Origin: a virus
DNA: 20,405 nucleotides
IMG/VR virus record: IMGVR_UViG_3300001460_005005
Coordinates: 1 to 20,405 of that record
Reading direction: 5' to 3' (one strand)
Under the pieces are notes generated by a model, which worked only from the letters and a program-made list of their open reading frames with translations, was not told where the DNA came from and searched no databases. Position 1 is the first letter of the stretch, and each line of letters opens with the position of its first letter. Shown here in pieces: positions 161 through 19,865 of the stretch. The position numbers and the translations under genes are program-made.

Positions 161-1324
161 ATGGGTTACGTCAACGACAACGATCCAAACGTCTCGTACT
201 CCTCTCTTCCGGGAGATAGCGTACCGATCAACCCGAACCTTCCGCCGGGCTATGTCATGGCCGGGTTGGGTCAGACGCCTGCTGTACCGGGGTCTCTTAC
301 TAGCCCCCCCTACAGTTACTACGGTAACTCCACCACGATGGCGGGGCAGATAGGCAACGGGTTCCCCATGCAGGGGACAGGGTTTGCTTTCCCTTCTCTA
401 CCCAACAGCCTCTACTTCAACACCTTGATCGGTGGAGGAGGAGGCGGTGGCGGCGGCACTGATCATCGAACAGAGATAACGCTCGGAAACACCCAGTTTA
501 ATTTTCTGACGAGTTCTTCTAATGACAGTACAGATTCGGCAGGAGTAATTACTAGAACGTTTACTCTTGATTATGACGGGACTAACTCTGGTTCTAACTT
601 TTTTCAGGCTGTAAATGCCTGTGTCACTACGGGAAGTTTCGTTGCGTTCAAGAACGTGACGGGTAACACCGGCACTGTCGTTGCCAGCAGCAGTACCGAC
701 GACCTCTTCTTGAAGGGGGATTGGACTTCAGCCGTCAATGACGGAAGTCAATACCTTAAGGCAGTCGCTCAAAACCTCAGCAGCGAGGACACCGTCACTT
801 TCTCCTTCGAGCGGTTCCTGCCGGAGAAGATCACGGCGGATAGTGGGGGGACACTTGAGTCAGGCAAGAAGGGCGGCATCCTTAAGATCGAGGGCGGCAA
901 TGGCATCACGACAAAGGTGCAGGCTGCCGACCTTTCGTCTGAAGGAAGCAACAAAGACCTCAAGGTTGTTATTGACGCAGACAACACAAGTCTTGATCAA
1001 ATTGAATTGGTGATTATTACCGCAGTTGGAGTCGCTCAAACTTTTACAGAAACAGGAGGCGGGAGCAGTATTACCAGTAATATCTATTCGGTAGCACAAG
1101 TAGATATACAATCTTCTTCTACCTACACCTCCGGTGCTACAGGGTCTTTGTACGACTTTAGTCGTAATAAAAATAACGAGCCTACTCAAGGAGCGGGGGC
1201 TACTTTTACTTTTCAACCTCTTGAAGTAGGAACTGTGCTTCCTGCTAAAAAGGTTGTTCTTAGTCCCACTAGCACTATTTGGGTTACGGGTGGTGTTCCT
1301 ACTCTTAACTTCTCCTGCTCATGA
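161..1324 (+). CDS. Putative virion appendage protein with polyglycine linker
   Basis: This is a 387-residue protein of unknown family. The first 90 residues are rich in Pro, Gly, Asn and Tyr. Nine consecutive glycines follow at about residues 91-99, encoded by mixed GGT/GGA/GGC codons. The rest is Thr/Ser/Gly-rich and predicted beta, as in phage tail or head appendages. A rigid N-terminal part, flexible glycine hinge and beta C-terminal part would suit an exposed virion fibre or decoration protein; that is inference. The start has only a weak GGGA upstream. The stop overlaps the next ATG by ATGA, implying co-translation. Composition shifts along the gene: 161-480 and about 660-960 are GC-richer, 481-600 and everything after 960 are AT-rich, suggesting mosaic origin. 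No enzymatic motif is visible. Confidence 0.6.
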   Translation: MGYVNDNDPNVSYSSLPGDSVPINPNLPPGYVMAGLGQTPAVPGSLTSPPYSYYGNSTTMAGQIGNGFPMQGTGFAFPSLPNSLYFNTLIGGGGGGGGGTDHRTEITLGNTQFNFLTSSSNDSTDSAGVITRTFTLDYDGTNSGSNFFQAVNACVTTGSFVAFKNVTGNTGTVVASSSTDDLFLKGDWTSAVNDGSQYLKAVAQNLSSEDTVTFSFERFLPEKITADSGGTLESGKKGGILKIEGGNGITTKVQAADLSSEGSNKDLKVVIDADNTSLDQIELVIITAVGVAQTFTETGGGSSITSNIYSVAQVDIQSSSTYTSGATGSLYDFSRNKNNEPTQGAGATFTFQPLEVGTVLPAKKVVLSPTSTIWVTGGVPTLNFSCS

Positions 1325-2451
1325 GCCACAACGCTGCTGCTGCTTCTGCTTGTTGTTGCGTATGCGGGCCGCCTACATGCGATAGTTCTTGTCTTGATGT
1401 AAGCACTGACATTACAAGTACTATTTCTCACGTTATTTCGGGGGCAAAGAAAAGTTTCTTATGCGAAGTTGGAGAAATTGCTTTGGTTAGAAACCAGACC
1501 CTTGAACATAATTTCACAGGCTTGGGAAGGTCGTCAATTAGTTACATCATCGGGCAAACTTCAAACCCAAAAATCAGGGAGTATCAAACTCCTTCTGGGA
1601 ATCCTTATTCTGAAAGAAGGTTCTTTGGGGGGGCAACTATAAGTGCCTCTGGTTCAGGGTCAGCGTCTGTTGAATACGAACTTGGGACTTGGCCTGTTAA
1701 TCCTCAAACTAGCATTATTAATGGGGAAGGGTCATGGACTATAGATTGGGAGTTAATCGACACTAGTGCGTCTAATTATTTTGCAACAGGTTCATATCTG
1801 TTTAAACATGTAAAAGGCATAGAGGACGATTGCGACGGCGATCCTGTTTGCACAACTACCTTTACGCAAGGTGCGTTTGACGACTTGAAAGTTCAAGTGA
1901 AGCAAACTATTTCTGCTGCTTTTAAGGCTCAAACTTTTGTCCCAGATGAAGACGGAAAAGAATGGGTTGGTGAAACTCCAATAGAATCAACCTTTGATGA
2001 GGTGACAATCATTGAAGTCCCTTTCTGGATGATTTTTAGGCATGAAGAGGACTTGAAAGATTGCGAGCAAATACCGAACGGTAGTAGCGGCAGGGTTTTA
2101 AACAGCGCGTCTCTTCAACTAGCACAACTTGTTGATGCGGCTTATTCAAAAATTCAAAGCCAATGGCTTAACGGTATTGCGGGGGGGTCGTATCCGGATA
2201 TTGGATTTGATTTTGATCCTCCGTTTAACACCGGCAGTCCCGTAGAAGAAGATAGTTGTGAGCCGTTTGATCAAGATTCTTCTGGGCAACAAGGGCTTCT
2301 AATTGGAAGATCTCAAGAAATTGGGGCTCGTTCTATCAATCAAACCTGTACTGAAAGTGGTCCTAAAGTACAAGAAAATACCTCATACAACCTTACTACA
2401 ACTGTCCGCCATAATAATACTTATCCGATGGAGCCAGTCCCTTGTCCTTAA
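1321..2451 (+). CDS. AT-rich, Cys-rich hypothetical virion protein
   Basis: This 376-residue protein is not recognised. Its N-terminus is unusual: an Ala run followed by six cysteines at residues 11, 12, 13, 15, 20 and 24 (CCCVCGPPTC and onward). More cysteines are scattered towards the C-terminus, including DDCDGDPVC, DSCEPF, QTCTES and the terminal PVPCP. The body is polar and predicted mainly beta, with no transmembrane segment or catalytic motif. The cysteines could bind metal or form disulfides in the mature particle; this is inference. Translation probably depends on the ATGA overlap with the upstream gene, since no Shine-Dalgarno site is visible. The gene is noticeably more AT-rich than the replication module and most of the virion block, which suggests recent acquisition or fast evolution, as is usual for host-range genes. 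Confidence 0.6.
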   Translation: MSHNAAAASACCCVCGPPTCDSSCLDVSTDITSTISHVISGAKKSFLCEVGEIALVRNQTLEHNFTGLGRSSISYIIGQTSNPKIREYQTPSGNPYSERRFFGGATISASGSGSASVEYELGTWPVNPQTSIINGEGSWTIDWELIDTSASNYFATGSYLFKHVKGIEDDCDGDPVCTTTFTQGAFDDLKVQVKQTISAAFKAQTFVPDEDGKEWVGETPIESTFDEVTIIEVPFWMIFRHEEDLKDCEQIPNGSSGRVLNSASLQLAQLVDAAYSKIQSQWLNGIAGGSYPDIGFDFDPPFNTGSPVEEDSCEPFDQDSSGQQGLLIGRSQEIGARSINQTCTESGPKVQENTSYNLTTTVRHNNTYPMEPVPCP

Positions 2452-2705
2452 AGTGCTACCACATGAACGGCGGCTATTGCTCTTTGGGGCTATTTGAAGG
2501 AAAGCCTTCAAAGAAAGATTGCTTAGACTGTGACTCATACGACGGAATGAGCAGGGGCCTTGGCGATGATATTGCTAAAATAGTAAAAGCCACAAGGCTT
2601 GACGCTTATGGCACTGCTTTTAAAAGAGTGTTTAAGCGGGATTGCGGCTGTAAGAAGCGACAGAAGAAGTGGAACGAAATGTTTCCTCATGAAAGCGAAG
2701 ACTGA
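2442..2705 (+). CDS. Small Cys-motif protein (87 aa)
   Basis: A basic 87-residue protein starts at TTG 2442 with GGAG about 8 nt upstream; ATG at 2463 (residue 8) is an alternative but has no clear Shine-Dalgarno site. Cysteines fall at residues 5, 13, 27, 30, 68 and 70. They form a CxxC (KDCLDCD) and a terminal CxC followed by KKRQKKWNEMFP. The pattern of GLGD-helix, then DCGCKKRQ, then LN/WN-x-x-FP resembles short conserved segments I recall from other marine phage proteins of unknown role; that similarity is from memory only. A structural zinc site is plausible. It overlaps the upstream gene by 10 nt and the next gene by one base, so it is embedded in the virion operon. Confidence 0.6.
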   Translation: MSLKCYHMNGGYCSLGLFEGKPSKKDCLDCDSYDGMSRGLGDDIAKIVKATRLDAYGTAFKRVFKRDCGCKKRQKKWNEMFPHESED

Positions 2706-5503
2706 TGCCTGAGATTAACCGTAGATGGATCTTTCCCACGATCTCTGCCTCTGAAAACAAAGGCATTGATCGTATTGCATTGACTGGTGAAGGCACCGCT
2801 CATGAGGTTGTGGGCGTGGATGGCAGCCGTCGCTTTGGGTGCAGGCCGTCTTCAGGCTTTCGTCTGGCCCACACGATGGACATCGAGAAGGACTTTTCCA
2901 GTTCGGGGTCTCGGCCTTTCTCGTCTGCCGTTCCCCCCACTCAGGCCAAGACCTCAACCGTCACTGACTGCTACCCGGTCCATTTCCAGATTCGGGAGGG
3001 CGAGTTCGGCCACGGCTTCGTCTACCGGGTGAAGATCGCTGGGGGGACTAACTCTGCAATCTACATGGATTACGTCCCAACCACTACGGTTGATGCCGCA
3101 ACTGGCTGGCGGACGGTCCTTATCAGCGACCACGCAGGAGGCAGCCATGTCTCCTCGGGCGACAAGATGGATGTCGTCTCGATGGGTCGATATGTCTTCA
3201 CGTTTGTGAAGGGGCGTGCGACCCGCGTGTTCTATGTCGACTTCAAGGACTTGACTGATGACAGCACTGACAACCCCACATACCAGCACAAGGTTGTGAA
3301 TGGTGGTCCCGGCAAGCGTCCTCTAGTAGATGGTGGAGCCCAATTGTCTCTTGGCTTCACTAGTACTGGAAACGCTCAAGGGCGTAATCATACTAATTTT
3401 CCTTATGCTGTTGGTTCTGCTTTGCAGGGAAAACTTAAAGAGTTTGGAGGTACAGATCCCGGAGGATCCACTCTTGATTTGCATCAGTTTAGTCCGGGCG
3501 ACTACACATTTGCTTATTACCTGAACGACAGCATCACTGGGCGACGTTCTGCTATTACTGAGATTGTCAGTAAAGAAGAGGGTGGATCGGAAGTCACTAA
3601 CAATGACTATATCGGATGGGTTTTAGAGATAGATCTTTCTTTGTACGATCAGATCTACATCTTTAGGTCTGTCAAAATGCAGTCTGTGGGGGGGACATAC
3701 AGTGGTTCAATCCTCCATCTCGACACTATCTACGACATTGCAGATCTGACTGCTTTGACTACTGGGAATGCTGCATATGGTAATTCGGTGCCGGGAAATG
3801 CCCTTAGTTTGTATGAGGTCTATTACCAGTTGAGCGATATCGCTCTTGCGATGCAGGACGTATACCTTGACAAGACTGAGTGTGATGATGAGATGCCGTT
3901 TGCTGGTGCCGCTGTTGCTTTTGAGAACTCGCTGCTTGTGTCGGATCCTCTCAATGGGTCCAGCGGTATTAGGACCAGCCTTGATAGTCGTGAGCGAAAC
4001 ATCGGGGAGTTGCGGTGGTCGTCGCTGACTGAGCGTAGCCCTGAACTCTTTCCGATCAACAACAAGTACAGCCCGGACGTTTACCAGAATCGGATTACTC
4101 GTCTGTGCCGTGCGGGGGATTATGCGGTCGGGTTCTCTGCTGACCGGATCTACCACATCAGGCGTAACGGAATCTACTTGAAGATCGAGGAGATCCATTC
4201 AGGTTTTGGGCTAGCGTCAGAGAACGGCTTCGCCATGGCGGGTCCCATGGTCTACTTCGTTACGACGAAGGGCATCAAGGCGATCGCCAACAACGGGCAG
4301 TTGGATGATGTGAAGGCGTTGGACAATCTCATCATGGAGGATTGGTACGACAACATCTCCGACCTGAGACTTGCGTTTGATCCGTATGCTTCGTGCCTCT
4401 TTGTACATAACCCGTTCAAGGAACAGACGGTCTGCATGTGGTTCTCGACGGGCCGAGTCACTGAACTCCATGACACCTGCTTCGACGATATCCGTACTGG
4501 TATCTTCCCCAAGACCTATACACGGAACGCTTTTGACGACACGACACCTACCCCCACCTTGACAACAAGCATGGTGGAGCGCTCTTTCTTCCTTCAGAAC
4601 CATCCGTCAACTACTGCGGATAACATCTTGGATGGTTGGAAGCCCCGCGTCTACGTCTTGGATGTGGACCGGGACAAGAAGCAGGTCAATAGCACGGATC
4701 TTTCTGTCGGGCAGAATGTGCTGAGGACGTTGGACTGCAAGGGCGACTCCGTTTTTACGGTCGCTTCGATTACAGACAACGCCACCAACAAGGAAATCAA
4801 TCTTAAGAGCGGGACTACCGGAACCAAAAAGTTGGGTGGTGGGGGGACTGGAGCCAAGGATCTGGTGGGTGCTTACGCTTATGTGATGAGTGCCACTGAC
4901 TCCACGATCGTGGGGAGAAAGTTTCAGATCTTCTCCGGTACAACGGGGACGGTGTCCACCGATGGATCTGGTGGGGGGAACGGAAAGATCAAGGTCAATG
5001 AGGGGCAGCCCAGCCCTGTGCCCCCCACTCTGGCTGCTGGAGATGTCATCTCGATTAGCCCGGTGCTGTTCCGGTATGTGGGGGGAGCCCTGCCCATGAT
5101 CCGGACGGCAGACAATCAAGTCATCTCGTCCTTTGACCTCTTCCAGAATAAACAAGTGTCCTCGGTGGGTTGCCACTTCTCAGACGTATCTGGGGGTGTG
5201 ACGGGCTACAAGTATTTCCGGGGCCTCGTATACAACGCAACCTCTGATTCTGCCTCAGTTTCTGCCTTTCCTCTAGATTTCTCTGGTACTATTATTGGGG
5301 ATTCTATTAAGGAAGGAGAGTCTGACGATTACGCCGCTTTCACGGCTACCGGGCTTACTACCAAGGGACGCCACGGAATCCAAGACTCTGCCCTGAATCC
5401 GGGTATTGAAGTGTTCTGTCCTGATTTGGATTACAAGTTGATGGCGTTGATTTGTAGAGGCCGTACTACCGGGACCGATACGACCGAAAGGAATTCGTCA
5501 TGA
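2705..5503 (+). CDS. Large tail protein, possible nozzle/beta-propeller type
   Basis: This 932-residue protein is the second largest in the window. The part at residues about 410-610 reads like the repeated blades of podovirus tail nozzle (gp12-like) proteins. It shows GDYAVGFSADRIYHI, then an HSGFGLASENGFA segment, then VYFVTTKGIKAI, LRLAFDPYASCLFV and VCMWFSTGRVTELHD. Residues about 680-800 form a Gly/Thr-rich insertion containing four polyguanine motifs. Such proteins form the lower tail tube through which DNA leaves the virion. The family call is by pattern memory and is tentative; a tail stabilisation or adsorption protein is the main alternative. The start is coupled to the previous stop (TGATG). 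Positions about 3305-3790 use AT-richer codons than the flanks. The stop overlaps the next ATG. Confidence 0.55.
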   Translation: MPEINRRWIFPTISASENKGIDRIALTGEGTAHEVVGVDGSRRFGCRPSSGFRLAHTMDIEKDFSSSGSRPFSSAVPPTQAKTSTVTDCYPVHFQIREGEFGHGFVYRVKIAGGTNSAIYMDYVPTTTVDAATGWRTVLISDHAGGSHVSSGDKMDVVSMGRYVFTFVKGRATRVFYVDFKDLTDDSTDNPTYQHKVVNGGPGKRPLVDGGAQLSLGFTSTGNAQGRNHTNFPYAVGSALQGKLKEFGGTDPGGSTLDLHQFSPGDYTFAYYLNDSITGRRSAITEIVSKEEGGSEVTNNDYIGWVLEIDLSLYDQIYIFRSVKMQSVGGTYSGSILHLDTIYDIADLTALTTGNAAYGNSVPGNALSLYEVYYQLSDIALAMQDVYLDKTECDDEMPFAGAAVAFENSLLVSDPLNGSSGIRTSLDSRERNIGELRWSSLTERSPELFPINNKYSPDVYQNRITRLCRAGDYAVGFSADRIYHIRRNGIYLKIEEIHSGFGLASENGFAMAGPMVYFVTTKGIKAIANNGQLDDVKALDNLIMEDWYDNISDLRLAFDPYASCLFVHNPFKEQTVCMWFSTGRVTELHDTCFDDIRTGIFPKTYTRNAFDDTTPTPTLTTSMVERSFFLQNHPSTTADNILDGWKPRVYVLDVDRDKKQVNSTDLSVGQNVLRTLDCKGDSVFTVASITDNATNKEINLKSGTTGTKKLGGGGTGAKDLVGAYAYVMSATDSTIVGRKFQIFSGTTGTVSTDGSGGGNGKIKVNEGQPSPVPPTLAAGDVISISPVLFRYVGGALPMIRTADNQVISSFDLFQNKQVSSVGCHFSDVSGGVTGYKYFRGLVYNATSDSASVSAFPLDFSGTIIGDSIKEGESDDYAAFTATGLTTKGRHGIQDSALNPGIEVFCPDLDYKLMALICRGRTTGTDTTERNSS

Positions 5504-6516: not shown

Positions 6517-6533
6517 ATTGCTTGAGGTAAGTC

Positions 6534-8036
6534 ATGTCTAGAGGCGCTCCCCCCACTCAACCTATTTCTGCCGTTACTCAGGGAACTACTCAGAGTATTG
6601 CTTCTGCTGGTCAGATGGGTCAGCAACGGCAGGCCACTAATAATGCTGCAATGGCTGCTCGAAATGCCGAGGCTCTTAAGCGTCAGCAGATTGATAGTCA
6701 GGAGTTTCTTACTCAAGAGACTCTCAACAACCGCATGAACATGGGGCTTCTTCAGAGTGCGAACTACGCACGGAAGAACGCTACTGACATGCAGATGCAG
6801 CAGAACGTATTGGCTGATAGGCAGAGTCAGCGTTCTGAGCAAGCAAGACAGTTCAATGAATCTAAGCAAATGAAAGAGAAGGTTCATCTGGACACCATGA
6901 ACATGGCTAAAGCCAACCAGATGCTAAAGTTGGATCTGGCTCTTGCCGATGACTACGAAGATCCTGATTCACTTGCTCGCCTTCAAGAGGCTGAGGACGG
7001 GTTGATTGAACGTACTCTTCAGATGGAAGCAGCAAAGAAGATTCAGCAGGGTCAAGAAGTAGACATGAACAAGTTGCGGACTCAGGTGGCACGCCAGATC
7101 CGCGACATGGAGAAAGCACAAAAGCCTCTTATTGATCGTGCGATGGATGTTGTCAGCGACGATGTAGTCTTGCCGATGGCAACCATGACGTACTTCGGCG
7201 AAAGAAGTGCTTTGTCTAAAATGAATCGGTTTGCGTCCGATGTTTTGGAAACAGGTGCAGAAGTAACCACTATGGGTTTCATTGACACGGCTGGTTATCT
7301 AGACGAAGCCAAACTCGAAGTTCTTCTAGACCCTGACCAACTTCGAAGTCATCAAGCAATTTATTATTCGCAGTCGATTGGCAAGGCTTTGGCTGCTGCT
7401 TTCCCAGAATCAGACAGTCGTTATCTGACTTCTTCGATTAATACTGTTCTTTCTAATGCAACCATAAACAACTCTGAAGAAACCGCTCAAAGACTCCAAG
7501 AGGTTTTTCGGCAGAACAACATTGATGCGGGAGTTGCAGGCGAAATTATTAGTCGAATGCAGGAAAGCATTAACGCTCAACGACAGACTTTTCGAAGCAG
7601 TGGTGTTACTGCGAACATGGGTCGTAACGACATTACAGAAGATAATGTCTTGGACCTTGCCAACCTCAAATTGATTTCTAGTTCTGCTCTCCGTGCAGCA
7701 TTTAGCCATCTGCCTTCAATGAAGGCATATCAGGCTTGGGCTGGCGGAGTCATGGGATCTAGGGATGAAGTCGAAGAGACTCTTCGCCAGATGACCGAAG
7801 AGGGAGTAGGCGTTGATGATATCAGTAGACTTGTGGACATGATTGAAGGCCTTGAAACAGGTGCTGAGAATCTTGGTGATATGGAACAGGACTTTGCACT
7901 GGATGAAGGCCGGGTCCAACGGCAAGCCGATAACATCCGTTTCGATACAGGTAGAGCCCGAGCAGGATTGAGGGGTCGAGCCCGCGATAACTTTGCTCAG
8001 GCCCTTGAGGATCTAGTGGGGGGAGAACCGGAATGA
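6534..8036 (+). CDS. Helical, Gln/Met-rich internal virion-like protein
   Basis: A 500-residue, largely alpha-helical protein. The first 60 residues are Gln/Thr/Ala-rich, and residues about 60-210 are strongly charged and Gln-rich with coiled-coil character (NESKQMKEKVHLDTMNMAKA, LQMEAAKKIQQGQEVDMNKL). The remainder is mixed helical and acidic. It has no enzymatic signature. Size, helicity and position before the giant last virion gene fit an internal core or ejection protein, as inference only. GAGG lies 6 nt before ATG. The end (DLVGGEPE) is encoded over a GTGGGGGG motif at 8016-8023, and this G tract also supplies the purine-rich ribosome site of the next gene. The stop overlaps the next ATG (ATGA). 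Confidence 0.6.
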   Translation: MSRGAPPTQPISAVTQGTTQSIASAGQMGQQRQATNNAAMAARNAEALKRQQIDSQEFLTQETLNNRMNMGLLQSANYARKNATDMQMQQNVLADRQSQRSEQARQFNESKQMKEKVHLDTMNMAKANQMLKLDLALADDYEDPDSLARLQEAEDGLIERTLQMEAAKKIQQGQEVDMNKLRTQVARQIRDMEKAQKPLIDRAMDVVSDDVVLPMATMTYFGERSALSKMNRFASDVLETGAEVTTMGFIDTAGYLDEAKLEVLLDPDQLRSHQAIYYSQSIGKALAAAFPESDSRYLTSSINTVLSNATINNSEETAQRLQEVFRQNNIDAGVAGEIISRMQESINAQRQTFRSSGVTANMGRNDITEDNVLDLANLKLISSSALRAAFSHLPSMKAYQAWAGGVMGSRDEVEETLRQMTEEGVGVDDISRLVDMIEGLETGAENLGDMEQDFALDEGRVQRQADNIRFDTGRARAGLRGRARDNFAQALEDLVGGEPE

Positions 8037-8329: not shown

Positions 8330-9459
8330 TGGCAAAATCTGATATTTATCTTGAAAGCGTTGCCAGTCTATTCTTTGATGGCTCTGATAAACTTTTTGAG
8401 AAGTCGTTCAGTAAAAGAGAGTTCATTGATGAATTCTTGAGGCCAATATTTAATACTGGCTCACCTACCATTGAAACGACAAGAGCGCAGGGACTTCTAG
8501 ATAGTGTCGACCCGGATATCATTCCTGAATTCCGTAGATCTATTGTTGCGGCGGCTAAGAATCGGTCTGCCGGGGCACCTGCCGCCTCTGGTTTTAACCA
8601 GATGTTGGACGCCTATGAAGCAATTGATGCAAGTGGTAAATTTGATTCAATCACAGACGCCCTTGATGATGAGATTCTAAGCAGTCCTACTATCAAGCCA
8701 GAGCCTAAGCCGCGAAAGCCTCCTCGGAAAAGAGGAACTACTTATCGCCGTAGCAAAGTAGACTTCACACCTTTTGGTGGCTCAGGCGATTTCTCTGTTA
8801 CTGATGATTTCTTGGATGACTTTCAGAGGAGAAGTGCTAGATCTATTAGCACTGACCCAACACTTAATCCTCGTCGCGGACGCAGCGGTGCGGATCTTCC
8901 CGGTGGTTTTCGTACTGGCCCCAATCTGGGTGTTGGGGCAAGCGATCTAGATAAGCAGGTCTTTGATCTGGTTGATGAACTAGACCCTGCTGCTACTCCA
9001 CTTGCAAGAACTAGAGCAGAACGCAAAGCAGCGGCAGCAGCCAAATCTGGTGTGGTTCAAGGCCCTGCTCCTGACATGGGTCCGAAGCCTCTGGGTAAGA
9101 GGATGCCCGCGAAGTTGTCGAAGTTTGCCAAGGTAGCAGGACCTATCGGTGCTGCTTTGATGCTGTATGACATCTTGTCTACTTATGGTGACGTGAGTAC
9201 TAGCGGAGCCCGACAAAATAAGAAGATGCTGGAGAATTCAGGAGCCCCTATGGAGGAACTCTTCACTGCTTCTGACAGGAACGAACTAAGAGAATCTAGT
9301 GCTTTGAGAAATATTGCGGAAGCAGGTAAGATTAGCCCTACAAGACCAAGCATTGAACTTCAAGGTATTCTTGGGGCTCAAGAAGGAATGCTTTCTGATC
9401 TACGACAGAAGGTCAAGCCGACAATGACTGAGGCTTATGCAAGGGCGGGTCTACTGTGA
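8329..9459 (+). CDS. Hypothetical virion protein with hydrophobic segment
   Basis: This is a 376-residue protein of unknown family. Residues 1-120 are helical and acidic. Residues about 121-150 form a basic, proline-rich linker (PEPKPRKPPRKRGTTYRRSK). Residues 150-250 are low in hydrophobics, and residues about 268-284 make one hydrophobic stretch (KVAGPIGAALMLYDIL) that could insert in a membrane. Such a basic plus hydrophobic layout would suit a DNA-contacting ejection protein, but this is inference. AAGG lies about 8 nt upstream of ATG and the start shares a base with the previous stop. Its stop TGA overlaps the GTG start of the next gene. Confidence 0.6.
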   Translation: MAKSDIYLESVASLFFDGSDKLFEKSFSKREFIDEFLRPIFNTGSPTIETTRAQGLLDSVDPDIIPEFRRSIVAAAKNRSAGAPAASGFNQMLDAYEAIDASGKFDSITDALDDEILSSPTIKPEPKPRKPPRKRGTTYRRSKVDFTPFGGSGDFSVTDDFLDDFQRRSARSISTDPTLNPRRGRSGADLPGGFRTGPNLGVGASDLDKQVFDLVDELDPAATPLARTRAERKAAAAAKSGVVQGPAPDMGPKPLGKRMPAKLSKFAKVAGPIGAALMLYDILSTYGDVSTSGARQNKKMLENSGAPMEELFTASDRNELRESSALRNIAEAGKISPTRPSIELQGILGAQEGMLSDLRQKVKPTMTEAYARAGLL

Positions 9460-9962: not shown

Positions 9963-9973
9963 GGAATTGAATC

Positions 9974-10402: not shown

Positions 10403-13400
10403 TGGCTGATACCTTCGACGATGAAGGTCTGGTCGAGGGCAACTTCGATCAGATCCGGATCTACGATGCCCCCGTCGTTGCCATGACTCAGATCATGGAC
10501 GGCGAGGCGTCGTGGCGTTCGTTCCGGGACACCTTCTTGGACCCGGCTTCGTTGTCGCCGTCAGAGCGAGACTCAATCACCGGGCGTATGAAGAAGGCTT
10601 TGGGGGATAACCCTCTGGGCAACGCCTTGGTGGATGTGGCGACTAACCCCTTCGTCCTCTTGATGTTTGCTACTAGCCCTGCGGCGGGGTCAGCAATCAA
10701 GAGTGGGGGGAGAGTCTTTACGGGTCTTGCCAAGGAAGTGGGGGGAAGAGGGTCAGAGTACATGGAGTATGTCGTAGGGAACTTTAGCCCCCTACGAATG
10801 ACGCACCTGTTGAATGCTCATCAGTTGGGTGCAGGTACGCCACTTACTTCTGTGTTGCATGAAGTGACATCTCGTCTTGATGACCTTGCGTCTCAGGATT
10901 CACTTCAGATCAGGCAGGCTACGGTAGAGGCCCTCGAAAAAATCTCTGCCAAGTTCGGGGCCAAGGTTAACAGTCTGGATCCCTCCAAGGCGCCAGCAGT
11001 CTCGGCAAATGTGAATGGTGAAATGATGTCCGCCAAGGAATACCTGAAGCGGTTCAACACTTACGCCTACGCTCACATGTCGGGCATGACCAAGAATGTC
11101 AAGAGAACTCATTCGACTATTGCTCCTACGACCATCCTTGAAATGGATGTGGGGGGAAAGATTCAGCAGGTACCGCTGCATTCAAAGCAGGCAACAAAGG
11201 TTCAAGACCTGTTGTCTGCACGAGCAGGGCAAATTGCTGACAAGAACAAAGAAGGATTCACTCGGATCAATGACAAGATCCGAGAGTACCTTTTTAGATC
11301 TGACTTTAAAATTCCTAAGAACGCGAAGTTCATGGGAGTTCGTTCCTCTGAAACTTCAAGAGGGTTTGTGAAGTTGGGGAAGGACGACAAGGCGGTTAAC
11401 GTCATGACTCGTGAGAGAGACGTTGCTGCTTTGGATCCCGGAGGCAAGACAACGCAGTGGCTTGAGCGAGAAGGCTTTATGCCCATGCTCACTCAGAGCC
11501 GCTCCATGATGAAGGCAAGATATGCCGAGATGTTCCTCAAGGGGGGACAAGATGCTCTGGCTAGCGGCAAGTTTGAGTACGACGAAAACAAACTGATGCG
11601 TATCTTCAGTGCGTTGAGCGACTCTGCTAAGACCAACAACTACCAAGCATCGGAGTTTCTTGTCCGCGAGATGTTTGGGGGCGTCGATGACGTTCTCCGC
11701 ACTAAACTCATCAAGGGCTTTGAAGACAAGACGATTAACTTCAAAGACTTCAAGAAGATGCTTGTTGATGTCAGAAGTAAGGACGACATTGACAACTTCA
11801 TGTCTCGCAACGTCTGGTCGTTCATCTACAAAGACGGAAAGAAAATCCGCGTAGATGCAAGCAATCTTTCAAGGTCTCAAAGGAACTCTTCTATCTCCGG
11901 CAGGACCATGGAGCGTCAACTCCAAGATCCGCTAACGGATATAGAAGACCTTGAGAGAATCAAGGCTTTGTACAACGATGGCAGGGGGACGCCCGGTACT
12001 CTTCTGGATCGTATTCAAAAGTCAAAGTCTATTCAGCAAGGCCGACTTGCTGTAGGTGCAGAGAGCAACCGCATTCAGGTAATGAACTTTGATTACTTGA
12101 ACTCCTTCAACAAGTATTTGAGGAGTACTCGTAACGATCTTGCAATGTTCATTGACCCACTTGGCCCTGCAAGCAAACAGGCAATCAAAGACTTTAAGTT
12201 CTTTGAGTCTCCTTTGGTTTCTCCCGGAGTAGGAAGGCTCAAAGCATACAAGTACGGAGCAGGTAGTGCTTCTCGGTATTCTGCTGTAGAAGAGATTGCC
12301 AAAGCCATCAAGAACAGCGAGACCAGCGGGGGGGACCACGCCTACAAGTACATTACTGAAACGCTTATGGAGCGTATTCAGGGTAACGTCCCGATGAAGG
12401 ATTACTTGAGTGAGTGGTCTTCCACTGCGGCCAAACGATTTGCAGGATGGCTTGGCAACTCCAAGTTTATGAACGAGGTGGCAAAGGGAGGACCTGCTCC
12501 CAACCGATTCATTCAAGGATTGAAGGAGTTTGCGGAAGAGCCGTTGACGGAATCTTCCGCTAGTAGGACCGGGCGAAATCTTACAACTCTTTTGTACACG
12601 TCTCACCTTGGATTTAATCTGGGCTCTGCGGCATTGAACTTGTTTCAGCCTTTGATGTTTGCTAATGCTTCGATGGGAGCAAAGGCAATGATCAAGGGGT
12701 ATGGAGAAGGTCTTTCTCAGTACTTCAACTACGTTCAGAAGAGAATGGCTCTTCCCGGTGGAATCGCTGCTGACCCATTGAAGGTAGACGAACTTCGTAA
12801 GAAGGTCTTCCGTCTCTCTAACATTGAGATGCCTGACGGCAGCGTGTCTGACCTTCTTGACATCCGTAAGAACGCATTTGAACTTCTTGATTCAGAAGCG
12901 TTTGCAGGTGCTGCTGCGACAGGTAAGCCGGGCCTCAAGTTCTGGGCTTCTGAGTTGCCTCTTAAGATCTTTACTAACTCTGAGATCTTTAACCGCGTGG
13001 TGACGGGTGAAGCGATGCTTGCTGCTTCTCGTAATGCGGGTCAGATCAAGGGTGTAGCCAAAGGTAAGATTGCAAACGTGTTCTCTGGTGGGGGGTCATC
13101 AGGCTCCATCCGAGCCTCCGACAACATCCGCCAGATGGTTCAGAACACGCAGTTTGGTTCTGACCTTGTGAATAGTCCTGCTTTGATGCAGTCGACTGGC
13201 TTTGGTTTGCCTTGGGTCCGCCAGTTCTTCTCGTTCCCTATTAGAACTTTGACAGCATGGACAGATACTTCCTCCATGATCAATCAGGGTCGAAGAACGT
13301 GGGGCGTCTTGGGGTTTGAAACCCAAGGTCGTTACACCGCAATGATGCACGACTTCGTAAGGATGATGGGTGCAAGTGCCGTCATGTACGAAGCGGGCAA

Positions 13401-14217
13401 GAACGCACTAGGCGTTGATCTGAGCAGGGGTCTTTCCGGTCAGACGTTGTACGAGTCCACGATTGTTGGTCCTATGGTATTGGAAGGTAAGGATCGCATT
13501 GCGTACCACCTCCCAATTCCTCCTGCCGGTGACATCTTGATGGATGCGGCAGAGGCTTTGACTCAGGATGATGTGAGCATTCTTGGCACGATGCTCCCTC
13601 GGTTTGTTCCGGGTGGCATTGGTATTTCTCGACTACTCAACGTGGCTCCCCGGATTACAAACCCGTCAGGGTATTTGGGTGGACTCCAAAGAGAGTCGGC
13701 GGATTGGTCCAAGATGAATGCCCAAGGACAGATTCCAATCTACCGGGCAGACGGAAGTCTTCTTGAGTATCGAAGCGGAATCAAAAGCGTCCTTGGCAGT
13801 CTTGGCTTTAACTCCTATATGTTTAAGAACGACAAGGAGTTGAACCGATTCTTGGTCAAGAACAGGCAGGCAGTTGTAGACGAGCGTCGTAAGTATCTTG
13901 ATGCGATGCTTGGCAATGACATGGCTAAGGCTGCAAAGGTGAAACAAAACTTCGAGAAGAGGTTCAAGTTCCCTCTGTCTGTATCAAAGATGCAGGTAGA
14001 TAAAGCGATTGAACTAAGGGAAGTCCCTCTTAAGGAACGCATGTATAAGAGAATGACTCCTGACATGCGACCGCAGGTACGTCCCTACCTTGAAGAACGA
14101 CTTGAGACTTTGAAGTCTCGTACACCGGAAGAATTGGATCTTAGTACTGCGAAGAAGGCTCGCTTGTTGCCTTCTACGTTTGAGTCTTTTGATCCGTATT
14201 CTGCTGTTACGGAATAA
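10402..14217 (+). CDS. Giant internal/ejection-like virion protein (1271 aa)
   Basis: This is the largest protein and the last of the rightward block. Residues about 71-98 are hydrophobic (NPFVLLMFATSPAAG). Residues 100-720 are mainly helical and basic. Residues about 728-775 form a second hydrophobic/amphipathic region (SHLGFNLGSAALNLFQPLMF), and the C-terminal third has a Trp/Phe-rich segment (GLPWVRQFFSFPIRTLTAWT). Its size, helicity and final position match the very large internal ejection proteins of podoviruses, but no lytic transglycosylase, peptidase or polymerase motif is recognisable, so the assignment is by context. The start is coupled to the previous stop (TGATG) and lacks a clear Shine-Dalgarno site. 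The first 400 bases are GC-richer than the rest. Four polyguanine motifs, two only 35 bp apart, lie in the gene. Confidence 0.65.
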   Translation: MADTFDDEGLVEGNFDQIRIYDAPVVAMTQIMDGEASWRSFRDTFLDPASLSPSERDSITGRMKKALGDNPLGNALVDVATNPFVLLMFATSPAAGSAIKSGGRVFTGLAKEVGGRGSEYMEYVVGNFSPLRMTHLLNAHQLGAGTPLTSVLHEVTSRLDDLASQDSLQIRQATVEALEKISAKFGAKVNSLDPSKAPAVSANVNGEMMSAKEYLKRFNTYAYAHMSGMTKNVKRTHSTIAPTTILEMDVGGKIQQVPLHSKQATKVQDLLSARAGQIADKNKEGFTRINDKIREYLFRSDFKIPKNAKFMGVRSSETSRGFVKLGKDDKAVNVMTRERDVAALDPGGKTTQWLEREGFMPMLTQSRSMMKARYAEMFLKGGQDALASGKFEYDENKLMRIFSALSDSAKTNNYQASEFLVREMFGGVDDVLRTKLIKGFEDKTINFKDFKKMLVDVRSKDDIDNFMSRNVWSFIYKDGKKIRVDASNLSRSQRNSSISGRTMERQLQDPLTDIEDLERIKALYNDGRGTPGTLLDRIQKSKSIQQGRLAVGAESNRIQVMNFDYLNSFNKYLRSTRNDLAMFIDPLGPASKQAIKDFKFFESPLVSPGVGRLKAYKYGAGSASRYSAVEEIAKAIKNSETSGGDHAYKYITETLMERIQGNVPMKDYLSEWSSTAAKRFAGWLGNSKFMNEVAKGGPAPNRFIQGLKEFAEEPLTESSASRTGRNLTTLLYTSHLGFNLGSAALNLFQPLMFANASMGAKAMIKGYGEGLSQYFNYVQKRMALPGGIAADPLKVDELRKKVFRLSNIEMPDGSVSDLLDIRKNAFELLDSEAFAGAAATGKPGLKFWASELPLKIFTNSEIFNRVVTGEAMLAASRNAGQIKGVAKGKIANVFSGGGSSGSIRASDNIRQMVQNTQFGSDLVNSPALMQSTGFGLPWVRQFFSFPIRTLTAWTDTSSMINQGRRTWGVLGFETQGRYTAMMHDFVRMMGASAVMYEAGKNALGVDLSRGLSGQTLYESTIVGPMVLEGKDRIAYHLPIPPAGDILMDAAEALTQDDVSILGTMLPRFVPGGIGISRLLNVAPRITNPSGYLGGLQRESADWSKMNAQGQIPIYRADGSLLEYRSGIKSVLGSLGFNSYMFKNDKELNRFLVKNRQAVVDERRKYLDAMLGNDMAKAAKVKQNFEKRFKFPLSVSKMQVDKAIELREVPLKERMYKRMTPDMRPQVRPYLEERLETLKSRTPEELDLSTAKKARLLPSTFESFDPYSAVTE

Positions 14218-14221
14218 AAGA

Positions 14222-14244: not shown

Positions 14245-14349
14245 CCCTCCACCAAGTTTTGCTAGATGAAAGGAGTAACGCTAGCACGTTCTGGAAGTGG
14301 GGGGTAGTGAAGAGAAGCCGCACTCATTGGTTACAGGCTATGACCCGAG

Positions 14350-14363: not shown

Positions 14364-14400
14364 ACCCCCACCCCCCGCGGTCGCAAAGGGGTGAGGGGCT
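14352..14400 (-). terminator. Intrinsic terminator of the leftward operon
   Basis: Read leftward just after the DUF932 stop, AGCCCCTCACCCC pairs with GGGGTGGGGGTGCT around a 13-nt loop. This gives 13 pairs with a single bulged U and one G-U pair. The stem is followed at once by TTTAATT. On the opposite strand the G-U becomes a mismatch, so the leftward direction is favoured. It would stop leftward transcription before it enters the rightward virion genes. Confidence 0.65.
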
Positions 14401-14407
14401 AGGAGGG

Positions 14408-15403: not shown

Positions 15404-15405
15404 TT

Positions 15406-15636: not shown

Positions 15637-15881
15637 TTAAGGTATCCCTCTTCCTTGAGGAATCGCTTCAGGGCAACGCGACATGCGACCGAACGAGATC
15701 CCATGTCATAGTCGTTCTGAAAGGAATTGATTGCCTTAACGGTTTCTGAGTCACAAGAGATGGTAAAGACATGCTTCTTGCCAATCTTGGGAGGCATGGT
15801 CTTTGTCGCCTTGGTGTACACAGGGGTGTTGTAAGTGACGGTAAAACGCTTGTTTCTCTTAACGGACTTCTTAGCGGGCAT
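15633..15881 (-). CDS. Ribbon-helix-helix (CopG/Arc-like) DNA-binding protein
   Basis: This is an 82-residue basic protein. Residues 1-35 are Lys/Arg-rich. Residues 37-43 form a strand (HVFTISC), 45-58 a helix (SETVKAINSFQNDY), then a short MGSRS turn, and 65-77 a second helix (VACRVALKRFLKE). This beta-helix-turn-helix order, with SRS at the start of the second helix, is the classic ribbon-helix-helix fold. Such proteins bind DNA as dimers through the paired strands and usually repress transcription, often autogenously. A strong AGGAG lies 6 nt before ATG. It overlaps the upstream gene by 11 nt. The promoter and hairpin at 16394-16485, which drive this gene group, are natural candidates for its operator. 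The fold call is from sequence pattern only. Confidence 0.65.
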   Translation of the reverse strand: MPAKKSVKRNKRFTVTYNTPVYTKATKTMPPKIGKKHVFTISCDSETVKAINSFQNDYDMGSRSVACRVALKRFLKEEGYLK

Positions 15882-16329
15882 TTTCTGCTCCTAGTGGTAG
15901 CCAGACTTCGTAGTTGTCTGGCGAGGTAAAACGAACGCCACCGGGGATACGTCCCGGTAGTAGCGTTGCATGTTGTGGGGGGGAAAGAAGAGGTCGCAAC
16001 TCTTCCTTGTGATCTGCTGTTACATAGAAATCTATAAACTTTAGAGAGCCCCGAACCTGACGAAACGTCATCACGAGTGGACGGTGTAGACGTTCGGCAG
16101 GTCCGGGGCTTTCTCCAACGCGAGCGATCAGCCAATCGCCCAGCACCGAGAGGGAGCCAGTCTGCCTCCAGAACCCACGAGGTGTGAGGTTCTGCCGGTC
16201 CAATGGCGGCAGCGGCAGGGCTTCTAGGTCTTGCGTGATGCGTATTCTGACTGGTGCATCAAGCCCTTCCCGTTCTCGGGCACGGGAGACAGTAGCCCAT
16301 ACCGGCAATTCAGTCAACTTCATCTCCAT
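15871..16329 (-). CDS. Hypothetical protein, 152 aa
   Basis: A 152-residue Arg/Leu/Pro-rich protein with predicted mixed alpha/beta structure and no recognised family. The start at ATG 16329 has GAGG 7 nt upstream; another ATG two codons later is less well placed. It is the first gene after the intergenic promoter and reads through a leader of about 120 nt containing a strong hairpin. A competing frame (15668-16135) overlaps both this gene and the ribbon-helix-helix gene and has an unnatural Arg/Ser/Thr composition. A seven-G version of the polyguanine motif (15975) falls in it and is read as LSPPQ on the coding strand. Confidence 0.55.
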   Translation of the reverse strand: MEMKLTELPVWATVSRAREREGLDAPVRIRITQDLEALPLPPLDRQNLTPRGFWRQTGSLSVLGDWLIARVGESPGPAERLHRPLVMTFRQVRGSLKFIDFYVTADHKEELRPLLSPPQHATLLPGRIPGGVRFTSPDNYEVWLPLGAENAR

Positions 16330-16393
16330 AGAATAGCCTCACGCCCCTCATAAAGAAGGACGTGAAGCCGGAGGAGAAAGAGATCTAGGGGAA

Positions 16394-16427
16394 GGCATGG
16401 GGTCCGTGGCAACGGTATCCCCATGCC
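16394..16427. promoter_or_regulatory. Long two-tier inverted repeat in the 5' leader
   Basis: GGCATGGGG and CCCCATGCC form a perfect 9-bp stem. Inside, CCGT and ACGG pair around a GGCA tetraloop, separated by a 1x3 internal loop. It lies between the promoter and the start at 16329, with no U-run on either side, so it is more likely an operator or a structured leader than a terminator. The polyguanine motif AGTGGGGGGA begins 4 bases after it. Confidence 0.6.
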
Positions 16428-16456
16428 GGAAGTGGGGGGACTAGTTTGGAGACTGC

Positions 16457-16485
16457 ATTATCCCATGTCCCGAGAGATAGTGCAA
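16457..16485 (-). promoter_or_regulatory. Sigma70-like extended -10 promoter
   Basis: On the - strand TTGCAC is followed, after exactly 17 bases, by GATAAT. GATAAT matches the -10 consensus in five of six positions and is preceded by TGG, an extended -10. The -35 is weak (three of six). Transcription would start near 16450 and serve the four leftward genes from 16329 to 14408. It begins directly after the terminator's T-tract, consistent with an independent transcription unit. Confidence 0.55.
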
Positions 16486-16486
16486 G

Positions 16487-16540
16487 TTAAAAGCCCCGAC
16501 GCCCCACCTGCTCTGAGTAGATGCGTTGGAAGCGTCGGGA
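16487..16540 (-). terminator. Intrinsic terminator of the recombination gene group
   Basis: On the - strand CCCGACGC (16539 to 16532) pairs perfectly with GCGTCGGG (16502 to 16495), followed by GC and TTTTAACTT. The loop contains a second small hairpin (CTACTC with GAGCAG). It lies 88 bases after the stop of the DUF669-like gene. On the + strand there is no T-run, so the direction is clear. Confidence 0.7.
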
Positions 16541-16626
16541 CCTAAAGAGAGGATTACTAGCCGGGGTCCCCAAGGATGCCTGAGACTGACCGGCCCGGAT
16601 TGGCACCTATCCTTTGAGCGGGGGAC

Positions 16627-17139
16627 TCAGGACTCTTCAAGGCGGGCGAGAATCATCTCCTCGCCGTAGACCTTGCCGTTGCCACCCTCGCGGGACTTGC
16701 AACGAACCTTGACCGGGACTTCTTCAGTACCGAGAAGTTCCTCGATCTGCTGAAGACCAGACCCCATGGTGGCGACATCGCCAAGCACGACGGTGAGCGT
16801 CTGCTTCATCCGCTTGAGGGCGATGTCCACACGAATCTGACCGCCGTCAGTCTTCAGTCCGGCCTTGCCACAGTCGGGGAAGATCATGGGGCCACCTTCG
16901 AAAGCACGGGGGTTGTCGGGCTGGTCGTCGTCCTGAAGAAGACGATAGTGGAACTTGATGAGAGTACCGTCGTGGGTGGTGCCATCCTTCTCCTTGAAGG
17001 GGCAGTCAACCTGAACGATGCTGGTCATCAAGCACTCGTAGGTTCCGTCTTCCGGGAACCAGTCGTTGTAGCCCTGACTGACTTCGGTCTCGCTGAAGTC
17101 GGACTCGAAGTTGTCAAAGACGGCTCGCTTAATACTCAT
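16627..17139 (-). CDS. DUF669-like putative ssDNA-binding protein
   Basis: A 170-residue acidic protein, predicted mainly beta. An early segment (WFPEDGTYECLMTSIVQVDC) is followed by strands (LIKFHYRLL) and a late helix (LQQIEELLGTEEVPVKVRCK). This layout of an N-terminal strand pair after a GxY motif, then an EELLG-x-x-VPVKV module, resembles DUF669 and related phage ssDNA-binding proteins with OB-like folds encoded beside RecA-like phage ATPases. Function is inferred from that neighbour. The start overlaps the ATPase stop (ATGA), with AAGGA 9 nt upstream. In such cassettes the protein would coat ssDNA produced by the nuclease. A terminator follows. An alternative is an annealing accessory of another family. 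Confidence 0.55.
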   Translation of the reverse strand: MSIKRAVFDNFESDFSETEVSQGYNDWFPEDGTYECLMTSIVQVDCPFKEKDGTTHDGTLIKFHYRLLQDDDQPDNPRAFEGGPMIFPDCGKAGLKTDGGQIRVDIALKRMKQTLTVVLGDVATMGSGLQQIEELLGTEEVPVKVRCKSREGGNGKVYGEEMILARLEES

Positions 17140-18041
17140 TGCTCTGTTTCCTTATTTGCGTTATCGAACGCGGACTCGAATGAACCCCACGGATCAACAG
17201 GATCCAAGGGAATGTTTGGCATACGGTGAGTGGTACGGGTACGAATGATACGGGAGAAGCGTGCATCATCAAACGCCAACTTGCGGTCGTAGATGATCTG
17301 CTCCTTGGGAATCTTCCGCTCGATTTCCTTTGTGCCAGATTTCACAATCTTCTTCTCCATCACGGTGGTGGAGCGTCGATCGCAGCACACTGGAGCAATC
17401 ATCTCAACTGCTGGAGTCAGGCGACGGACCATGCCTGCTGAGAGATTAAGGGTGAGTTCTTCTTGCTTGGCTCCATCGTCGGAGATCTGCAAGAACTCAC
17501 GGCTGAGATGTGCAATGAACCACACACCGTAGCCCACTTGGCGAAGATCAAACGCGAACGACAGGATCTCGTCGAAGAGTTTGTCGTAAGCGGCTGGACC
17601 ATGTGCCTGATCAAAGGAAGCCTTGCCCATCTTCTTGGCGATGTAAGGCTTGAGGAGTCGAACGCAGGGCGTGATAGTGTCGAGTACCACGCACTTGGGA
17701 CGAAGTTCATCTGCCCTTGCCATGTCGATGAGTTGTTGCTTCTTCTCCAACACCTTCTCCCAAGCCAAGACGATATGCTTTTCGTCGATGTCGACTGGGA
17801 GTCCTTGCTCGTTCACACCCGGCCAGATAGTGGCACGACACTCTGGCGTCACGGTAGATGACAGATCAAGGTTGATGATGAAAGCATCGGGATTGGATTG
17901 GAACAGATAAGACTTGCCTGTGTTCTGTTCTCCAACCACCATGCCGAAGAGAGCGTTGAGCGGATACTTCATCCGCTGTCCTGAGAAACCGAGTTTGGTA
18001 AAGCCCATCGGTGTTCCTTCTACTAGGGTTGTATGGTTCAT
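17136..18041 (-). CDS. Sak4-like RecA-family ATPase
   Basis: A 301-residue P-loop ATPase. The Walker A motif GEQNTGKS is at residues 37-44, Walker B CVVLD at 117-121, and a WFIAHLS segment at 174-180 sits at the usual sensor strand. Size and motif order match phage Sak4/AAA_24 single-strand annealing or recombination ATPases, which are about 220-300 residues and work with a phage SSB. The listed start (ATG 18041) overlaps the upstream stop by ATGA but lacks a good ribosome site. Residue 12 (ATG 18008) has AGAAGGA 6 nt upstream and could be the main start. Position between a small protein and the DUF669-like gene supports the call. A replicative RecA or helicase is less likely given the short length. 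Confidence 0.75.
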   Translation of the reverse strand: MNHTTLVEGTPMGFTKLGFSGQRMKYPLNALFGMVVGEQNTGKSYLFQSNPDAFIINLDLSSTVTPECRATIWPGVNEQGLPVDIDEKHIVLAWEKVLEKKQQLIDMARADELRPKCVVLDTITPCVRLLKPYIAKKMGKASFDQAHGPAAYDKLFDEILSFAFDLRQVGYGVWFIAHLSREFLQISDDGAKQEELTLNLSAGMVRRLTPAVEMIAPVCCDRRSTTVMEKKIVKSGTKEIERKIPKEQIIYDRKLAFDDARFSRIIRTRTTHRMPNIPLDPVDPWGSFESAFDNANKETEQ

Positions 18042-18388
18042 GCCTGATTGAACATATCGTTACGCCTCTGCTGGCTCTTAAACCTGTGGGGGGACACATC
18101 TTCGTTATCGAATGCGACTTCTTCTTCCGAGGCATCCGCCCCGGCCACCGCCGGGGGGGTTGCGTCGGGGTAAAGTCCCTTGATCTCTACCTTCTTCACA
18201 AAGGTGATACCCAGAATGCTGAGGTAACTTTCAAACTTGGCAGCAGACATGCTGACTCCTTCTTGTTCAATGAACTTCTTTCTGAAGTCTGCCTTGTTGT
18301 TGATGTCGCCTCGTGTCTGATACACCTTCTGCAACTTGGGCAGAATTACTGCCCTTGCAATGTCGTTCTCAAAATTGTCGTCACTCAT
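18038..18388 (-). CDS. Hypothetical protein, 116 aa, possible HTH
   Basis: A charged protein. Residues about 30-63 (NKADFRKKFIEQEGVSMSAAKFESYLSILGITF) could form a helix-turn-helix of the type that contacts DNA, and residues 77-100 are acidic and probably disordered. No family is recognised with confidence. AAAGGA lies 7 nt before ATG, and both ends overlap neighbours by a few bases, so it is clearly part of the recombination operon. A DNA-binding accessory to the ATPase or nuclease is plausible but unproven. A polyguanine motif (18086) falls in its C-terminal part, read as VSPH. Confidence 0.55.
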   Translation of the reverse strand: MSDDNFENDIARAVILPKLQKVYQTRGDINNKADFRKKFIEQEGVSMSAAKFESYLSILGITFVKKVEIKGLYPDATPPAVAGADASEEEVAFDNEDVSPHRFKSQQRRNDMFNQA

Positions 18389-18543
18389 TTTCGTTTCCTT
18401 TGTTTGTAGCCCGGTAGGGGCTTGTGCTTGGACTTGGTACGATCTTTGGGCGTACCACCCATTGTGATGGATTGTCGGGTTGCTTTGTTTTTCTTGCCTT
18501 TACTAAACATTCCGGGAGTGTCGGTAAGAGACTTGCTTTTCAT
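18385..18543 (-). CDS. Short strongly basic protein, 52 aa
   Basis: A small open frame fills the gap between the nuclease and the 116-residue gene. Its ATG (18543) overlaps the nuclease stop as ATGA, and its TGA overlaps the next ATG by the same 4 bases. The product is very rich in Lys/Arg with almost no acidic residues (GKKNKATRQSITMGGTPKDR, ending GYKQRKRK). It could bind nucleic acid or neutralise a partner, but no family is recognised. Perfect coupling at both ends and lack of any other explanation for the gap make a true gene likely. Confidence 0.65.
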   Translation of the reverse strand: MKSKSLTDTPGMFSKGKKNKATRQSITMGGTPKDRTKSKHKPLPGYKQRKRK

Positions 18544-19865
18544 TCCTCAAACTCCGACCCCGGCTCAGCAATGACATCGAACTCCACCTCCTCGGGGATA
18601 GGGTCATCCCGACGACGAAGCGTGAACCCTTCGCTTTGAATCAGCGAGGGCCAATCCCCTACAGGCGACAGCATGAAGGGGGAGTAGGTAGAGAACCTGC
18701 CCATGTGGGCGACCCGATCTGACATCGGGAAATTCTCTGGGTATGGGTTGCAGAGGGCGTAGTGTTGGACCAGCCTTACACGATCACGATACCGTTTGTT
18801 GATGGCGGGGTCAAGGACAAGAGACGCCTTTGTCATTGAAATGTTGACGGGTGGATCTTCTGACCACTCGGGGGCCTTGTCAATGTAGTCCCCCCGTGCG
18901 TGATACCACTGATTACATCTATCGAGGTAGTTGTCGAACCGTGGCTCGCCCTCGTAGATCTTGGTGTTGCGTGGCATGCCCTTGCGGGGTCCGGACTTCA
19001 ACGGAGACATGTCGATCGTGAAGTCACGATCTTTCATACCGAACTCAATGCTGGGTTTACGAATGGCAAGGTGCATCATCCCGCCGAGGGTTGCGTCCTT
19101 GGGGATCTTGAATGCTTGCTGGATCTGTCCTGTCTTCAGCAACTCGTTGACGCTGAACATGTAGTGTTCACATTGAAACTCAATGGGCACACTTGCCAAC
19201 CGCATCTTGGGAGAGATGGCGGTTGACTTGAGATCCACGATCCAGACGGTGTTGTCTTCCTTGTTGTATAGGAGGAGGTCAGGCTGACAGATGCACCGGA
19301 TGGGCCGAGCCCGGTCGTCGGTCTTGATAGACGTGACTAGCCGGTACTCAGTACCCATCCGATGCCATCGTGGGTTGAGAAGTACATCCTCAAACGACTG
19401 GCCGTCCAAGCAGGGGAGGGCTCGTGCTGCTTCGTACCAAGCCAAAGAGGAACGCATGTCACGCTCCTCGCGTTCAAGAATCTTTCTCAACGCAGATCCC
19501 ATCATGCCTGCGTCTTTACAACTTTCAGTAAGTTCTGAAAGTCTCTCACCCAATGCCTCTTCCATTCTCGTTCGTGCGTCAATGATTGATCGGTGGTAAT
19601 GCTGGAACCTGAGGTGCATCCATGTGCCACGGTTCATTGCTTTGGACCACTTGACTGCTGGCACTACGCCGAGTCGCCGTGCCATGTAGTAGGCAAAGGG
19701 GTCAGACAGGCAAGTGCCGTAGTCACTAGAACGGAGGGGCGGAATGATCGCGTTGACCCCGTGTGCTTGGAGATGCTCGTAGGCTTCCCGACCCAATGTC
19801 TCCGGCCACGGATGGCTGGTAGGTATTGGTGGGGGGGTCTGATTGAAGTCCGCTTCTAAGGTCAT
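18540..19865 (-). CDS. PD-(D/E)XK nuclease (RecB/Cas4-type)
   Basis: This is a 441-residue protein with the RecB-family nuclease core. RSSDYGTCLSDPFAYY (45-60) marks the N-terminal conserved S/C region, and GTWMH (80-84) supplies the conserved His. CQPDLLL (193-199) carries the metal-binding Asp196. VDLKST (210-215) carries Asp211 and Lys213, and QCEHYMF (231-237) is the QxxxY motif. All core residues are present, so an active metal-dependent exonuclease or endonuclease is expected. Beside a Sak4-like ATPase and a putative SSB, it would resect double-strand ends for annealing. The family usually spans 200-350 residues; the C-terminal 150 residues are unassigned. ATG 19865 has GAGG 7 nt upstream. 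It overlaps the upstream frame by 140 nt out of phase, which is unusual. Confidence 0.8.
   Translation of the reverse strand: MTLEADFNQTPPPIPTSHPWPETLGREAYEHLQAHGVNAIIPPLRSSDYGTCLSDPFAYYMARRLGVVPAVKWSKAMNRGTWMHLRFQHYHRSIIDARTRMEEALGERLSELTESCKDAGMMGSALRKILEREERDMRSSLAWYEAARALPCLDGQSFEDVLLNPRWHRMGTEYRLVTSIKTDDRARPIRCICQPDLLLYNKEDNTVWIVDLKSTAISPKMRLASVPIEFQCEHYMFSVNELLKTGQIQQAFKIPKDATLGGMMHLAIRKPSIEFGMKDRDFTIDMSPLKSGPRKGMPRNTKIYEGEPRFDNYLDRCNQWYHARGDYIDKAPEWSEDPPVNISMTKASLVLDPAINKRYRDRVRLVQHYALCNPYPENFPMSDRVAHMGRFSTYSPFMLSPVGDWPSLIQSEGFTLRRRDDPIPEEVEFDVIAEPGSEFEE

Follow-up and report, generated by a model that had tools for sequence, protein, structure and literature searches.

A clade-variable, G-rich octamer under selection in an uncultured phage family, a candidate Chi-like recombination signal

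The 20,405-nt stretch of viral DNA analysed here (the window) carries genes on both strands, among them two genes of a recombination module, and is punctuated from position 843 to 19829 by the octamer GTGGGGGG, which occurs exactly 20 times when both strands are read over the whole window (16 copies on the plus strand and 4 on the minus strand). The copies, with their flanking bases, and the two recombination genes are as follows.

843-850, plus strand: motif copy AGTGGGGGGA, sense in gene 161-1324
2933-2940, minus strand: motif copy AGTGGGGGGA, antisense in gene 2705-5503
3686-3693, plus strand: motif copy TGTGGGGGGG, sense in gene 2705-5503
4839-4846, plus strand: motif copy GGTGGGGGGA, sense in gene 2705-5503
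4971-4978, plus strand: motif copy GGTGGGGGGA, sense in gene 2705-5503
5021-5028, minus strand: motif copy AGTGGGGGGC, antisense in gene 2705-5503
5078-5085, plus strand: motif copy TGTGGGGGGA, sense in gene 2705-5503
6549-6556, minus strand: motif copy AGTGGGGGGA, antisense in gene 6534-8036
8016-8023, plus strand: motif copy AGTGGGGGGA, sense in gene 6534-8036
9627-9634, plus strand: motif copy AGTGGGGGGA, sense in gene 9456-9962
9817-9824, minus strand: motif copy AGTGGGGGGA, antisense in gene 9456-9962
10703-10710, plus strand: motif copy AGTGGGGGGA, sense in gene 10402-14217
10738-10745, plus strand: motif copy AGTGGGGGGA, sense in gene 10402-14217
11149-11156, plus strand: motif copy TGTGGGGGGA, sense in gene 10402-14217
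13088-13095, plus strand: motif copy GGTGGGGGGT, sense in gene 10402-14217
14297-14304, plus strand: motif copy AGTGGGGGGT, gap between convergent gene blocks
15975-15982, plus strand: motif copy TGTGGGGGGG, antisense in gene 15871-16329
16432-16439, plus strand: motif copy AGTGGGGGGA, gap 16330-16626
17136-18041, minus strand: Sak4-like annealing ATPase gene of the recombination module (phrog_124, E 4e-10; AAA_24)
18086-18093, plus strand: motif copy TGTGGGGGGA, antisense in gene 18038-18388
18540-19865, minus strand: PD-(D/E)XK exonuclease gene of the recombination module (PDDEXK_1, E 1.3e-9; phrog_1218 exonuclease)
19829-19836, plus strand: motif copy GGTGGGGGGG, antisense, in the overlap of the minus-strand genes 18540-19865 and 19726-20079

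The protein of gene 161-1324 also contains a run of nine glycines (window 430-470).

No other octamer is as frequent in the window, and Markov models predict only 0.5 (order 2) or 1.2 (order 3) copies. When synonymous codons were permuted within the genome, preserving the proteins and the codon counts, 200 shuffles gave a mean of 1.04 coding copies and a maximum of 4, compared with the 18 observed. The remaining G6 contexts occur 0-4 times each (AAGGGGGG 1, CGGGGGGG 3, GCGGGGGG 3 and TGGGGGGG 4), so a general enrichment of G tracts is rejected. The over-representation that the original prediction had described therefore withstands both comparisons proposed with it, against a codon-shuffled expectation and against other G-tract contexts. 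Its flanking constraint, never C before the octamer and usually A after it, also holds: the preceding base is A in 11 copies, T in 5, G in 4 and C in none of the 20, and A follows in 14/20. The copies that it placed in both non-coding gaps are those at 14297 and 16432, in the two larger gaps. Among the 65 Gly-Gly pairs in the window, GGG-GGG ranks first (10/65) and GGG-GGA third (7). A literature search found no paper that prints GTGGGGGG as a word.

Using the exonuclease gene (18540-19865) as a query in IMG/VR yielded 18 and then 27 contigs, and 73 loci were recovered with the D5-type helicase that the larger relatives encode. The relatives comprise about 90 IMG/VR contigs that share a syntenic genome plan of about 50-54 kb; one contig of 54,420 bp, with a terminal repeat of 127 bp, probably represents a complete genome. 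TerL, portal, capsid and internal proteins lie on one strand (the portal and capsid being named from position and size alone), and the helicase, family A polymerase, uracil-DNA glycosylase (UDG), ERCC4 nuclease, PD-(D/E)XK exonuclease and Sak4 on the opposite strand, with the recombination and replication genes found in nearly all large members. A search of 50,697 phage records at 1e-5 gave no match to TerL or portal; judged by that collection, the family is therefore uncultured. Likewise, a 1271-aa protein had no match to cultured phages at 1e-5, and the helicase, polymerase and DUF932 protein gave nothing beyond remote hits to them. Whole relatives (L032-L034, L059-L061 and others) carry a stand-alone D5-type helicase and a family A polymerase with no recognisable primase, a set that resembles the CCPol-MP-Cch2 set of SCCmec. 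Scanning six family genomes for tRNA genes as a clue to the host revealed none in five; the most divergent member, G064, encodes tRNA-Arg(CCT) and tRNA-Gln(TTG) (L194, 4372-4520).

A G-rich octamer built on this design heads the over-representation ranking in nearly all members that offer enough sequence, at a density of about 0.4-1 per kb and an observed-to-expected ratio (O/E) of about 8-27. Every variant is short, G-rich and non-palindromic, as known Chi sequences are, and the consensus differs by clade as follows.

Window clade: AGTGGGGGGA
G018 and G019: GTGGGGGGGA
G046, G047, G051, G053, G065 and G021: cGTGGGGGGAC
G027 and G025: TGGGGGGAg
G055, G058, G060 and G061: CAGTGGGGGT
G044: GAGTGGGGGA
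G050: AGTGGGGGAG
G063: TAGTGGGGAA
G043 and G045: AGCGGGGAA
G064: GGAGGGGGA, with 89 copies of GGAGGGGG in 45 kb

G062 shows a weak excess of a TGGTGGGG-type word and nothing stronger. The variant AGCGGGGA includes AGCGG, the Chi of B. subtilis. On a helicase tree, in which some short loci were labelled by hand, motif types group into clades with 12 changes over the labelled rows, and within the window clade the motif is unchanged while GC ranges from 0.42 to 0.56. The consensus words derive from the same data as the enrichment, for which the conservation and codon-shuffle analyses are separate tests; in loci of 4-20 kb the motif signal is slight, and genomes of one clade are not independent. 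In some genomes (L044, L136 and L214), palindromic octamers are over-represented as well (TCTCGAGA, CGAGCTCG and GCTTAAGC), perhaps linked to modification.

The octamer is under selection as DNA. Copies far exceed the codon-shuffle expectation in 10 genomes, and conservation of the sites is two to four times that of matched sequence: across 15 adequately aligned genome pairs, two of them nearly identical and adding nothing, 149/228 sites are conserved versus 71 expected from all octamers of the same alignments. Single pairs reach significance on their own (15/17 conserved versus 0.46, 10/16 versus 0.15, 26/32 versus 0.43 and 12/18 versus 0.18). These results, together with the codon shuffle and the recurrence of clade-specific variants in relatives, support the earlier suggestion that selection acts on the DNA itself. 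Genomes of this family of aquatic phages hold dozens of copies each, maintained by selection and branch-specific in detail.

The sites occur in genes and in gaps and on either gene strand, most of them inside genes; they are dispersed over the genome without clustering, and in most genomes they are spaced somewhat more evenly than chance would give. Over the full genome length, about 70% of them are on the TerL-sense strand. The preferred strand leads by 96:45 in plus-strand genes, 42:20 in minus-strand genes and 26:6 in gaps, indicating that polarity tracks the genome and not its genes. Over 20 genomes the bias is 437:193 with no switch along the map, and it exceeds strand composition (486/696 versus 393 expected, z 7.2, with related genomes not independent). 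Directionality is thus independent of gene direction family-wide; the 16:4 bias in the window equals the level predicted from its G skew (expected share 0.76, sites masked), and polarity beyond composition is visible only across relatives, not being significant in the window alone.

Applied to phage P1, the same statistics ranked GCTGGTGG, the Chi of E. coli, above every other octamer (50 copies in 94.8 kb, 0.53 per kb, O/E 11 at order 2, strands 31:19). Its log-likelihood excess is 54; the top octamer reaches 27-89 in most of the family, with G050 and G062 weak at 17 and 20, and three other control phages had no comparable octamer (top excess 18-20). Like Chi in P1, which is read by RecBCD, the family word is the top octamer, G-rich, non-palindromic, present at about 0.5 per kb and favours one strand. 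It differs in being another word that varies by clade and in its often higher O/E and somewhat stronger polarity. Because Chi in P1 gives the same statistics, a Chi-like hotspot fits best among the candidates listed in the original prediction; primase sites are possible, whereas neither packaging signals nor a general G-tract binder is a good fit, since the sites are genome-wide and other G6 contexts are unenriched. Proteus phage 2207-N35 (L215) has nine copies of AAGGGGCT versus 0.4 expected.

With about even confidence, our leading reading takes the octamer for a Chi-like recombination signal that acts in one direction, and most probably for the Chi read in each clade's host; Chi signals direct the repair of DNA ends in bacteria. 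Phage replication and packaging would make concatemers and expose double-strand ends, which a host helicase-nuclease of the RecBCD or AddAB type could enter; on meeting the octamer on the 3′-ended strand, this enzyme would halt degradation and begin recombination. We propose that selection filled the phage genome with copies because the octamer protects ends in this way. In lambda, P22 and SPP1, packaging proceeds in the TerL direction. If it does so here, an enzyme that loads at the unprotected end created by a packaging cut would meet the TerL-sense motif in its active orientation, and by analogy with the cos-Chi rule of lambda such RecBCD-like entry may explain the TerL-sense preference. 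The simplest reader would be the host's own RecBCD or AddAB, and the variants would then be candidate Chi sequences of different host groups.

The phages encode their own exonuclease and annealing protein, and motif type tracks the phage tree despite the GC range; both observations speak against a host Chi, and the second would also be expected of a recogniser encoded by the phage. It is possible, if less probable, that a phage-encoded recombination or replication machine reads the octamer, with a DNA specificity that drifted along with the phage (a G-run of 4 to 7 and a central T, C or A). The presence of recombination and replication genes in nearly all large members favours a phage-encoded reader, as do scans of unrelated viruses for close pairs of AGTGGGGGGA and CAGTGGGGGT, a weak test restricted to pairs within 35 bp: apart from members of the family, they found the words only singly or in tandem, and never densely in an unrelated virus. 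A phage protein as the reader would make the octamer a new kind of genome-wide signal, either a Chi owned by the phage or a genome-wide priming code; we know of neither from any virus. If a phage protein is the reader, we tentatively regard as likeliest that the octamer marks sites on the lagging-strand template at which the family A polymerase and the stand-alone D5-type helicase prime or start replication. The octamer lies mainly on one strand, as priming predicts, although Chi predicts the same. Primase-polymerases of phages and plasmids read short template-strand sites containing GTG or GTGG (NrS-1 at TTTGGTTA and at GTGG or GTGA, and ORF904 at GTG; PMC8718748), with a related D5-type helicase as a further point in common, and the similar SCCmec set of family A polymerase, MP and D5_N helicase, which lacks a classical primase, primes at preferred sites (PMC7581432). 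However, the preferred SCCmec site lies at one putative origin and is not element-wide, and the phage polymerase has a 3′-5′ exonuclease-like N terminus that CCPol lacks. Searches of Pfam, PHROGs and PDB sequences revealed no primase domain in the core replication proteins (an unrecognised or host primase is possible): the helicase aligns to the helicase part alone of primase-helicases, the polymerase matches family A polymerase alone, and a candidate for the missing primase turned out to be the uracil-DNA glycosylase. Moreover, the variants AGCGGGGA and GGAGGGGGA lack GTG. Sites of the NrS-1 and ORF904 type are not, to our knowledge, found filling genomes, and we know of no 8-10-nt primase site with comparable genome-wide enrichment.

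It seems unlikely that the phage's own recombination system (the PD-(D/E)XK exonuclease, Sak4 and an SSB-like protein) uses a Chi-like signal of its own that the exonuclease or one of its partners reads. Its genes are conserved together with the motif across clades, but known Chi recognition requires a helicase-nuclease machine and the exonuclease shows a nuclease domain alone in Pfam; its predicted structure (pLDDT 39.6) was too poor for a structure search. We give still less credence to stoperators, packaging signals, FtsK-orienting sequences (KOPS) or another directional DNA signal. Repeated, polar, short sites do occur among operators, packaging signals and FtsK-orienting sequences, and mycobacteriophage stoperators likewise comprise tens of short asymmetric sites in each genome. 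Those, however, are repressor sites near gene ends, oriented with transcription, whereas the family sites are mostly intragenic and disregard genes in position and orientation. A cos or pac signal needs one or a few clustered sites and the family sites are dispersed genome-wide, and KOPS need convergent polarity and no strand switch occurs along the 20 genomes. Operators and packaging signals are thus mostly refuted by site position and orientation. The window does have G skew and a Gly-rich stretch from which composition, codon use or protein repeats might have generated the octamer; this explanation is rejected by the codon shuffles, the order-3 Markov models, the other G6 contexts and the site conservation, and we assign it a negligible probability.

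If the words are host Chi, as in the reading we prefer, they offer a fresh clue to the hosts of uncultured phages. The only genome found to hold a phage of the family is the Myxococcales MAG PCCS01 (48.6 kb on contigs C7, C18 and C72; L054, L055-L057). The tetranucleotide odds of the phage contigs correlate with the MAG at 0.04, versus 0.64-0.85 for its own pieces; given this mismatch, the MAG is probably not the host and the contigs are probably mis-binned. Its own DNA has 3 copies of GTGGGGGG in 420 kb versus 5.6 expected, and the octamer as the Chi of this MAG was rejected on both grounds. Similarly, 379 genomes of its phylum showed no Chi-suggesting excess of AGTGGGGG over a reversed control. 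The lack of enrichment in the MAG and its phylum counts against the Chi reading, with the reservation that this MAG is probably not the host, as does the O/E in the family (8-27), which is higher than the value near 2.3 reported for Chi across the genome of E. coli (PMC3784561). The same difference means that phage genomes could reveal Chi words directly. Experiments have established Chi sequences for no more than about five bacteria, and most proteobacterial species yield none when searched (PMC8022716); Chi-like signals in phages could reveal Chi for bacteria in which none is known. An unrelated viral contig (G433, the contig of L076) carries five copies of GTGGGGGG in an 11-bp tandem array at 11323-11374.
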